Part shown: piece after piece, positions 9,987-12,918 of the stretch | Layout of the letters: the number at the start of each line of letters is the position of its first letter | Numbering within the stretch: position 1 is the first letter of the stretch | DNA from: Thermomicrobiaceae bacterium | GTDB taxonomy: Bacteria; Chloroflexota; Chloroflexia; Thermomicrobiales; Thermomicrobiaceae | NCBI GenBank assembly: GCA_007133615.1 | Contig: SLMJ01000230.1 | Coordinates: forward strand, 1-37,380 | DNA length: 37,380 bases | Direction: 5' to 3' | Program-made: the position numbers and the translations under genes | The notes under the pieces: model-generated | What the model saw: only the letters and a program-made list of their open reading frames with translations | Databases searched by the model: none | Told to the model about the DNA's origin: nothing

Positions 9987-10053
9987 TTGACTCGATTCGG
10001 GAACTATGCTAGCATTTCTGAGCTCGACGGTGCGCCCGTCGGAGCGCTACAAT
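9987..10053 (+). promoter_or_regulatory. Two candidate promoters for the T-box/tRNA-Ala/leuS transcript
   Basis: Promoter A is TTGACT (9987-9992), 17 bp, TAGCAT (10010-10015), predicting a start near 10022. Promoter B is TCGACG (10024-10029), 18 bp, TACAAT (10048-10053), predicting a start near 10060, immediately before the first conserved T-box nucleotides. B fits the usual short distance between start site and Stem I. The 352-bp gap between the nfeD-like start (9878) and the tRNA (10231) therefore holds the promoters and the 5' half of the riboswitch; nothing protein-coding is supported there. Confidence 0.5.
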
Positions 10054-10230
10054 TATGAACTGGCGATGATCGGGAGTAGTACATCGCCGCGGCGAACAGC
10101 GAGTTGCCGGTTGGTGTGAGGCAACGATACGCACGCGGAGTGGAACTCGCCCGGGAGCTGTTCCGGTAAGTCTGATTCAGCCGGAACCGGTTGACCACCG
10201 TTAGATGGTTGCCGAGTGGGTAGATAGCTC

Positions 10231-10303
10231 GGGGCTGTAGCTCAGTTGGGAGAGCACAACACTGGCAGTGTTGGGGTCAGGGGTTCGAGTCCCCTCAGCT
10301 CCA
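10231..10303 (+). tRNA. tRNA-Ala (anticodon GGC)
   Basis: The 73-nt cloverleaf is complete: acceptor 10231-10237 with 10296-10302, D stem GCTC/GAGC, anticodon stem CAACA/TGTTG, loop CTGGCAG (anticodon GGC at 10264-10266, U33 and A37 in place), and T arm AGGGG-TTCGAGT-CCCCT. The acceptor stem contains the G3:U70 wobble pair, the major alanine identity determinant, and the discriminator is A73. CCA is not encoded (CTT follows). There are no mismatches, so it should be functional. Its location is unusual: it lies inside the leuS T-box leader, 22 bp before the T-box motif. No well-spaced private promoter is seen; TTGACC (10191) and TAGATA (10221) are 24 bp apart. Confidence 0.97.
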
Positions 10304-10345
10304 CTTCATGAACCATCTACCAACCAGGGTGGTACCGCGGAACTG

Positions 10346-10381
10346 GCCTTTCGTCCCTGTACAGGGATGAGGGGCTTTTTT
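10346..10381 (+). terminator. T-box intrinsic terminator / antiterminator switch
   Basis: GCCTTTCGTCCCTG (10346-10359) pairs across a 2-nt TA (in practice a larger loop) with CAGGGATGAGGGGC (10362-10375) as a continuous stem including G-U pairs, followed by six T. The segment GTCCCT (10353-10358) can instead pair with AGGG of the T-box motif (10326-10329) to form the antiterminator. The two structures are therefore mutually exclusive. For the embedded tRNA-Ala this is also the natural 3' terminator. Confidence 0.93.
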
Positions 10382-10437
10382 CGTTTTCCGGGACATTGTT
10401 TGGACGCATCTGTTTCAGTATCGACAGGAGGATCCCG

Positions 10438-12918
10438 GTGTCATCAACAGCTGAAGCTCGATCCAGAGCAAAACAGTACGACGCCAGCGCCATCGAACAG
10501 AAATGGCAACAGGCCTGGGAAGAGGCCCAGCTGTACCGGACGCCGGACGAGTCCGAGCGACCGAAGTGGTACGCGGTCACGATGTACCCCTACCCCTCCG
10601 GAGACCTGCACATCGGGCACTGGTACGCGATGGTGCCATCGGACGCAGCGGCCCGGTTCAAGCGGATGAACGGCTACAACGTGCTGTTTCCGATGGGGTT
10701 CGATGCGTTCGGCCTGCCTGCCGAGAACGCTGCCATCCAGCGCAACATCCATCCGCATTCCTGGACAATGGCGAATATCGAGAACATGCGCCGGCAGATG
10801 CGGTCGATGGGTACGATGTTCGACTGGGATCGGGAAGTCATCACCTGCCTGCCGGACTACTATAAGTGGAACCAGTGGCTGTTCCTGCAGTTCATGAAAC
10901 ACGATCTGGCGTATCAGGCAAAAGCGCCGGTCTGGTGGTGTCCGCAGTGTCAGACGGTTCTGGCAAACGAGCAGGTTATTGAGGGCGAATGTGAACGCTG
11001 CCACAGTGAAGTGAGCCGACGCGATCTGACGCAGTGGTTCTTTCGAATTACCAACTACGCCGAGGAGTTGCTGGATTTCACCACGATTGACTGGCCGGAT
11101 CGCGTGGTCACCATGCAGCGGAACTGGATTGGCCGTTCCGAAGGCGCCCGGGTGACCTTCCGCAGCGAGCAGGATGATCCGATCGAGGTCTTCACGACCC
11201 GACCCGATACGCTGTGGGGCGCGACCTTCATGGTGCTGGCGCCCGAGCATCCGTTGGTGGAGAAACTCACGACGGACTCTCAGCGTGAAGATGTCGAGAA
11301 TTACGTGGCCTGGGCTCGCCGGCAAACGGAGATCCAGCGAACGAGCACGGAGAACGACAAGACCGGCGTGTTCATCGGCGCCTATGCGGTCAACCCGGTG
11401 AACGACGAGCGGATCCCGATCTGGATCGCTGATTACGTTCTGATGGGCTACGGAACCGGCGCCATCATGGCCGTTCCTGCGCATGACCAGCGCGACTTCG
11501 AGTTCGCCAAACAGTTCGACCTGTCAATCCGGGTCGTCATCAAGCCTGAAGACGAAGATCTGGACGCAGAAATGATGACCGAGGCCTATCCAGACGAAGG
11601 CGTTATGGTCAACTCTGCGCATTTCGACGGTACGCCAACCGCAGACGGCGAGGCGGTCTCAAAGGTAATCGAATGGCTGGATGAGCAGGAACGTGGGCGT
11701 GGCGAGATCAACTACCGATTCCACGACTGGCTGGTCTCCCGGCAGCGATACTGGGGTACGCCGATTCCGATTGTCTACTGCGACGCCTGCGGAACAGTCC
11801 CCGTGCCAGAGGAAGACTTGCCGGTGCTGCTGCCCGAGGATGCGGAGTTCAAGCCAACTGGCGAATCTCCATTGAAGACGCACGAGAGCTTCTTCAATAC
11901 AACTTGCCCGAGCTGTGGCGCGGCTGCTACCCGCGAGACCGACACACTGGATACGTTCGTCGACTCCTCGTGGTATCAGTACCGCTACCTGAATCCGCAC
12001 TATGAGGACGGTCCCGTTGATCCCGAGAAGGCCGCCGAATGGCTGCCGGTCGATCAGTACACTGGCGGCATCGAGCACGCGACGATGCACCTGCTGTACA
12101 CACGGTTCTTCACCAAGGCGATGCGGGACATCGGGCTGTTGAACATCGACGAACCGTTCACCCGGCTCTACAACCAGGGCATCATTCTGGGTGAAGACAG
12201 CGAGAAGATGTCCAAGAGCCGCGGCAACGTCGTGGATCCGGACGAACTGGTGGATGAGCTGGGCGCCGATCTGGTGCGGCTCTACCTGATGTTCATTGCT
12301 CCGTGGGACCAGGGTGGTCCGTGGAATCCGCGTGGCATCGCTGGAATTGACCGATTCGTCCGCCGGGTCTGGTCCATTACAGACGAGACAGCTGATGCTG
12401 CCGGCGACGGTGACGTTGATGCTGACGTTGAACAGGACCTGAAGAAGAGCCTGCACAAGACCATCAAGGTGGTCGGTGATGACCTGGGCAGCTTCGAGTT
12501 CAACACCATGGTTGCCCGGCTGATGGAGTTTATCAACGATCTCTACCAGTTGCGTGAGCGTGGGGCGGTCGCTTCCCCGGTCTGGCGCGAGGCGCTTGAA
12601 TCACTGGCGCTGATGCTGGCGCCGAGCGCTCCGCATCTGGCGGAAGAGCTCTGGCACCGACTGGGGCGTGAATTCAGCATCCACCAGCAGGCCTGGCCAT
12701 CCTACGATGAAGCGCTGACGGTCGAGGATACGGTTGAACTGGCCGTGCAGATCAACGGCAAGGTTCGCGATCGGATCGAAACGGCTATCGACGCCGGCGA
12801 AGAGGCTGTTGTGCAGCAGGCGATGGCCAGTGAGCGTGTGCAGGAGTCGGTTGGAGACAAACAGATACGTAAGGTGATCTACGTCCCCGGCCGGATTCTG
12901 AACATCGTAGTAGGTTAG
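10438..12918 (+). CDS. leuS: Leucyl-tRNA synthetase
   Basis: LeuRS is a class I synthetase that charges tRNA-Leu. The protein has 826 residues from GTG 10438. That start is chosen because AGGAGG (10426-10431) is correctly spaced; the frame also opens at TTG 10396, which would fall just after the terminator. Motifs in order: YPYPSGDLHIGHWYAM (HIGH), a zinc-like CPQC...CERC element, the CP1 editing domain with TTRPDTLWGATFMVLAPEHP and YGTGAIMAVPAHDQRD, RQRYWGTPIPIVYC, FVDSSWYQYRYLNP, EKMSKSRGNVVDP (KMSKS), then the anticodon-binding and C-terminal domains ending QIRKVIYVPGRILNIVVG. It is controlled by the upstream T-box and is followed closely by uridine kinase and an aminotransferase. Confidence 0.98.
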   Translation: MSSTAEARSRAKQYDASAIEQKWQQAWEEAQLYRTPDESERPKWYAVTMYPYPSGDLHIGHWYAMVPSDAAARFKRMNGYNVLFPMGFDAFGLPAENAAIQRNIHPHSWTMANIENMRRQMRSMGTMFDWDREVITCLPDYYKWNQWLFLQFMKHDLAYQAKAPVWWCPQCQTVLANEQVIEGECERCHSEVSRRDLTQWFFRITNYAEELLDFTTIDWPDRVVTMQRNWIGRSEGARVTFRSEQDDPIEVFTTRPDTLWGATFMVLAPEHPLVEKLTTDSQREDVENYVAWARRQTEIQRTSTENDKTGVFIGAYAVNPVNDERIPIWIADYVLMGYGTGAIMAVPAHDQRDFEFAKQFDLSIRVVIKPEDEDLDAEMMTEAYPDEGVMVNSAHFDGTPTADGEAVSKVIEWLDEQERGRGEINYRFHDWLVSRQRYWGTPIPIVYCDACGTVPVPEEDLPVLLPEDAEFKPTGESPLKTHESFFNTTCPSCGAAATRETDTLDTFVDSSWYQYRYLNPHYEDGPVDPEKAAEWLPVDQYTGGIEHATMHLLYTRFFTKAMRDIGLLNIDEPFTRLYNQGIILGEDSEKMSKSRGNVVDPDELVDELGADLVRLYLMFIAPWDQGGPWNPRGIAGIDRFVRRVWSITDETADAAGDGDVDADVEQDLKKSLHKTIKVVGDDLGSFEFNTMVARLMEFINDLYQLRERGAVASPVWREALESLALMLAPSAPHLAEELWHRLGREFSIHQQAWPSYDEALTVEDTVELAVQINGKVRDRIETAIDAGEEAVVQQAMASERVQESVGDKQIRKVIYVPGRILNIVVG

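Follow-up and report, generated by a model that had tools for sequence, protein, structure and literature searches.

A complete alanine tRNA gene is nested inside the T-box riboswitch that precedes leuS, the gene for leucyl-tRNA synthetase, in a Thermomicrobiaceae bacterium, where it occupies the loop of an intact Stem III. T-boxes have been studied as readers of tRNAs made elsewhere; the widespread class described here encodes a tRNA within its own sensing fold, and the encoded tRNA appears to be the organism's only one with the GGC anticodon. The window analysed is a 37,380-nucleotide stretch of contig SLMJ01000230.1, and all of the features given below lie on its + strand.

Anatomy of the leuS leader

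The Rfam T-box model (RF00230) matches the whole leader, nested tRNA included, at 10057–10361 with a score of 104.9 bits against a gathering threshold of 93 (E 2.4e-22), and the match extends along the full model (1–219). Inside it, cmscan places a tRNA (RF00005) at 10231–10303 with 66.4 bits, and ARAGORN reports a tRNA-Ala(GGC) at 10231–10304, the only tRNA in the window. A first-pass annotation, made from the letters of the sequence, had proposed a complete tRNA-Ala(GGC) within a leuS T-box, a proposal that the nested Rfam matches and the ARAGORN call bear out. The coordinates it gave all hold on the sequence, and the T-box match covers the sequence 5' of the tRNA, as it had anticipated.

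Upstream of the leader, a consensus scan identified a predicted sigma-70-type promoter at 9987–10015 (TTGACT-N17-TAGCAT with an extended -10 TG, 9/12 matches), the sole promoter-like site that fits the start of the leader. In the RF00230 alignment, Stem I and its specifier loop span 10063–10158, with the leucine specifier codon CUC (CTC in the DNA) at 10146–10148; tRNA-Leu(GAG), which matches this codon, is encoded on another contig of the same genome (C404). Stem II (GTTCCGG...CCGGAAC, 10160–10187) and the Stem IIA/B region (10188–10203, with CCGTTA at its end) follow. On the 3' side of the tRNA, the T-box sequence AGGGTGGTACCGCGG at 10326–10340 contains the UGGU that complements an ACCA 3' end, and an intrinsic terminator stem, followed by a T tail, was found at 10345–10376, the region 10341–10386 folding at -23.0 kcal/mol. 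The segment CGTCCCT is common to this terminator and to the antiterminator pairing of RF00230. The leuS reading frame, recognized by its translation and by tblastn homology, starts with GTG and runs from 10438 to 12918. Model score, a specifier that matches leuS, the RRRxG-StemIII-AA frame, the UGGN bulge and a competing terminator are all present in a single leader.

The T-box discriminator is defined as 5'-RRRxG-StemIII-AA-3' (PMC7583486). In the window this order is retained, with a purine string GAGTG (10214–10218), the 5' strand of Stem III (GGTAGAT, 10219–10225), a 5-nt linker, the tRNA (10231–10303, CCA not encoded), an 11-nt linker, the 3' strand of Stem III (ATCTACC, 10315–10321) and the AA (10322–10323); purine string and AA are both conserved. 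The minimum-energy fold of 10214–10323 forms Stem III, a helix of 7 bp, around the tRNA cloverleaf. This fold and the intact discriminator frame indicate that Stem III persists and that the tRNA makes up its loop, so the earlier placement of the tRNA in the position of Stem III has to be given up.

Covariation across 93 distinct loci supports the enclosing helix. The two strands pair in 78.8% of cells compared with 58.9% in shuffled alignments (0/500), double changes number 192 against 71 in the shuffles, and sliding the strands by one column reduces pairing to 40% or less. Throughout this alignment, the nested tRNA sits at the tip of Stem III. Folding the entire leader at once gives other structures, as expected for a long RNA folded without regard to its order of synthesis. 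A separate helix, 10203–10211/10311–10319 (AGATGGTTG/AACCATCTA), competes with Stem III (-10.4 versus -7.8 kcal/mol as duplexes); we treat it as incidental because it is not seen in the closest relatives.

Alanine identity, distribution and natural variants

The embedded element possesses the features of a functional tRNA-Ala, namely a cloverleaf, the anticodon GGC at 10264–10266, the G3:U70 pair (10233:10300) and A73 (10303). G3:U70 and A73 are kept in all of 124 distinct embedded tRNAs (124/124), whose acceptor stems fall into 14 sequence types, every one fully paired, and CCA is encoded in 93 of them. The specifier reads CTC in about 95% of the embedded loci tested, the text match being loose for a few. 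No other tRNA-Ala(GGC) occurs among the 41 tRNAs found in the genome to which the window belongs, a draft of 412 contigs from which a second copy could be missing. Twenty carriers were searched for alanine tRNAs and 19 were counted, the search having missed the embedded copy of the remaining one; no second GGC copy was found among the other alanine hits read in these 19, which are CGC or TGC. We rejected, as a main idea, that the embedded tRNA is the T-box's own ligand, the specifier being CUC and not an alanine codon. The UGGU bulge could still pair with the ACCA end of the embedded tRNA.

Scanning one genome per species for a tRNA T-arm joined to a T-box sequence returned at least 120 loci. 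Among the matches listed, a tRNA-Ala(GGC) ends 7–29 nt 5' of the T-box in 117 of 120; the remaining three hold no complete tRNA, one of them being a locus cut at that point. Because 117 of 120 loci among the matches listed share both isoacceptor and place, chance is excluded. In nearly all loci among these matches, leuS is the next gene or one gene further. Record labels assign the loci to Bacillota, Chloroflexota or Thermomicrobiota, Armatimonadota, Actinomycetota, Coprothermobacterota and Caldisericota, although draft bins may in some cases be mislabelled. Cultured carriers with nested Rfam matches over threshold include Syntrophomonas wolfei subsp. methylbutyratica, S. palmitatica, three Desulfofundulus species, Desulfovirgula thermocuniculi, Carboxydothermus islandicus and Orenia metallireducens; Thermosyntropha lipolytica fits the pattern at a locus cut inside the tRNA. 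The Desulfofundulus/Pelotomaculum group carries an acyl-CoA synthetase-like gene between the nested T-box and leuS, an order that would place this gene under leucine T-box control at L058, L071, L105, L113, L128, L137 and L157.

A relaxed pattern applied to new samples again recovered true T-boxes with tRNA-Ala(GGC) only, and identified carriers in 22 of 60 genomes of the Desulfofundulus class and 13 of 151 Chloroflexota. By the strict pattern, 36 of 61 genomes of the Syntrophomonas class are carriers, and 9 of the 12 strict-negative genomes inspected in that class still carry the arrangement with a variant T-box. Other T-boxes sampled in carrier genomes contain no tRNA, and their Stem III loops measure 3–20 nt where the helix is readable. 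On a LeuS tree, nested loci occupy nearly all branches, in the Chloroflexota part as well as in that of the Bacillota; sampling was directed at carriers, and the tree therefore does not separate one ancient origin from transfer. In related genomes the tRNA is retained together with Stem I and its CUC specifier, which disposes of the concern raised at first pass that Stem I might be a chance similarity.

Natural variants reveal neighbouring arrangements. Within the same family there are genera in which the tRNA stands just 5' of the T-box, itself complete. A tRNA-less T-box in one relative (G034) has a Stem III of 8 bp with a 14-nt loop, and its tRNA-Ala(GGC) is encoded about 8 kb away; in a further genome (G022) the tRNA precedes leuS and there is no T-box. 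These variants indicate that co-transcription with leuS is common and that the nested position is frequent, not obligatory. At three loci (L100, L114 and L162), tRNA-Ala(CGC) lies just 5' of Stem I and tRNA-Ala(GGC) inside Stem III, placing two alanine tRNAs on one leuS leader. Two nested leaders (L184 and L198) have drifted T-box sequences (GGGGTGGTACCACGG and AGGGTGGCGCCCCGG) and retain both tRNA and leuS, which suggests decaying leucine control. Elsewhere (L251, genome G197), a tRNA-Ala(CGC), not GGC, lies about 160–235 nt 5' of leuS, and a T-box was not found. The window's own genome (G000) also encodes a tRNA-Val(GAC) directly 5' of a thrS T-box, in tandem (contig C223, 5319–5711; L048). 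We rejected this pair as a second nested case, because the tRNA ends at a terminator of its own and is not enclosed by the T-box.

A proposed two-output leader and its rivals

The most economical reading of this organization is a dual-output leader, and we consider it probable that a single promoter drives both constitutive synthesis of tRNA-Ala and leucine-gated expression of leuS. From the sequence we infer promoter use, excision and processing of the tRNA, the relative timing of cleavage and antitermination, and leucine dependence. Transcription from a promoter upstream of 10057 would produce the T-box transcript, whose CUC specifier would sense tRNA-Leu(GAG), and every initiation would yield a tRNA-Ala. 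When leucine is plentiful, polymerase would halt at the terminator (10345–10376), leaving a short RNA that would be a tRNA-Ala precursor, so that the T-box terminator would double as the 3' terminator of the tRNA and the attenuated RNA would make sense as a product, not as waste. When leucine is scarce, uncharged tRNA-Leu would bridge Stem I and the antiterminator, permitting readthrough into leuS while tRNA-Ala production continues. The usual tRNA-maturing nucleases would free the tRNA-Ala. In such a leader, tRNA supply and synthetase control would be linked in one transcript.

Stem III probably tolerates a tRNA because its loop is freely variable and only the helix and the flanking purines are needed. 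The tRNA-less relative, in which a short loop closes this helix, also speaks for the dual-output reading. Other considerations weigh against it. The fragmented draft may lack a second tRNA-Ala(GGC), a cut by RNase P before the T-box decision would part Stem I from the antiterminator, and relatives with the tRNA outside the T-box suggest that nesting as such may bring little advantage. We regard as speculative, with perhaps a modest chance of being right, a self-splinted two-piece riboswitch, in which the tRNA would be excised from the tip of Stem III while the leader works, and the covarying Stem III together with bound tRNA-Leu would join the sensor and expression halves. If true, cutting a functional RNA out of a riboswitch that is still at work would constitute a new way to build RNA regulators. 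The idea that splinting is signalled by longer Stem III helices was rejected, since none were found in comparison with other T-boxes of carrier genomes. Nested helices have a median of 6 pairs and ordinary ones 5 (p 0.17; a rough comparison, as the automatic anchor missed some helices), and no special adaptation to excision is seen in this respect.

The same helix lengths speak against a regulatory coupling, in which maturation of the embedded tRNA would feed back on leuS. On the nascent leader, RNase P or 3'-end nucleases would compete with antitermination or determine how stable the leuS mRNA is, and leuS expression would then also report tRNA-processing capacity or the rate of transcription. 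The tRNA is complete at 10303, just before the T-box is transcribed from 10326, so processing and decision would overlap in time, and the nested position recurs across phyla. In relatives, however, the tRNA has moved out of the T-box or been lost with nothing else visibly altered, and we judge such coupling unlikely. Lower still is the probability that the tRNA is driven by its own promoter inside the leader, with two independent units merely overlapping. By eye, promoter-like sequence lies directly 5' of certain related tRNA-Ala(GGC) genes that are not part of a leader (L190, L192 and L197), but the consensus scan revealed no promoter-like site on the + strand between 10054 and 10231, a span that includes the stretch from Stem I to the tRNA, and conserved T-box parts fill the 150 nt 5' of it. 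This result also bears on the independent start between 10160 and 10231 that the first-pass annotation had named as fatal to its reading, for which no candidate site was found; the predicted promoter at 9987–10015 lies upstream.

If the tRNA-like domain served only to cap Stem III structurally and were never freed to work as a tRNA, its invariable place at the tip of the helix would be accounted for. We nevertheless find this very improbable, given that G3:U70 and A73 are kept in every one of the 124 embedded tRNAs, that acceptor stems vary only with compensation, that CCA is so often encoded and that no other GGC alanine tRNA was found in the window's genome. An assembly artefact or a chance similarity might be suspected in a draft of so many contigs. 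We reject both with near certainty, since the arrangement is conserved in isolates, including Syntrophomonas wolfei, Desulfofundulus and Carboxydothermus, and is detected by the strict pattern in more than half of the Syntrophomonas-class genomes. Under the preferred dual-output reading, the tRNA-processing nucleases and the T-box decision would act on the same RNA, which poses the question of how they meet there, and the existence of cultured carriers makes it experimentally testable.

Comparison with known T-boxes and tRNA-mRNA transcripts

A review of T-boxes notes puzzling insertions, with neither structure nor function known, in all domains of these RNAs, Stem III included (PMC7583486), and no statement that a tRNA gene forms such an insertion was found in that paper. 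The first-pass annotation knew of no described T-box with a tRNA gene inside it, and as far as the searchable open literature shows, the nested arrangement is new. Stem III insertions in T-box collections are accordingly worth rescanning for tRNAs.

In its remaining anatomy, the leader shares the features of a transcription-attenuating leuS T-box (RF00230): a Stem I with a CUC specifier, Stem II, Stem IIA/B, RRRxG-StemIII-AA, the T-box bulge, a competing terminator and leuS downstream. It differs from other T-boxes in that the Stem III loop holds a complete tRNA gene. The thrU-tyrU-glyT-thrT-tufB operon of E. coli places tRNAs and a protein gene on one primary transcript from which the tRNAs must be excised; in that operon they lie ahead of the gene, not inside a riboswitch. 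The leuS leader has in common with that operon a shared tRNA-mRNA transcript, but its tRNA is part of the regulatory fold itself.
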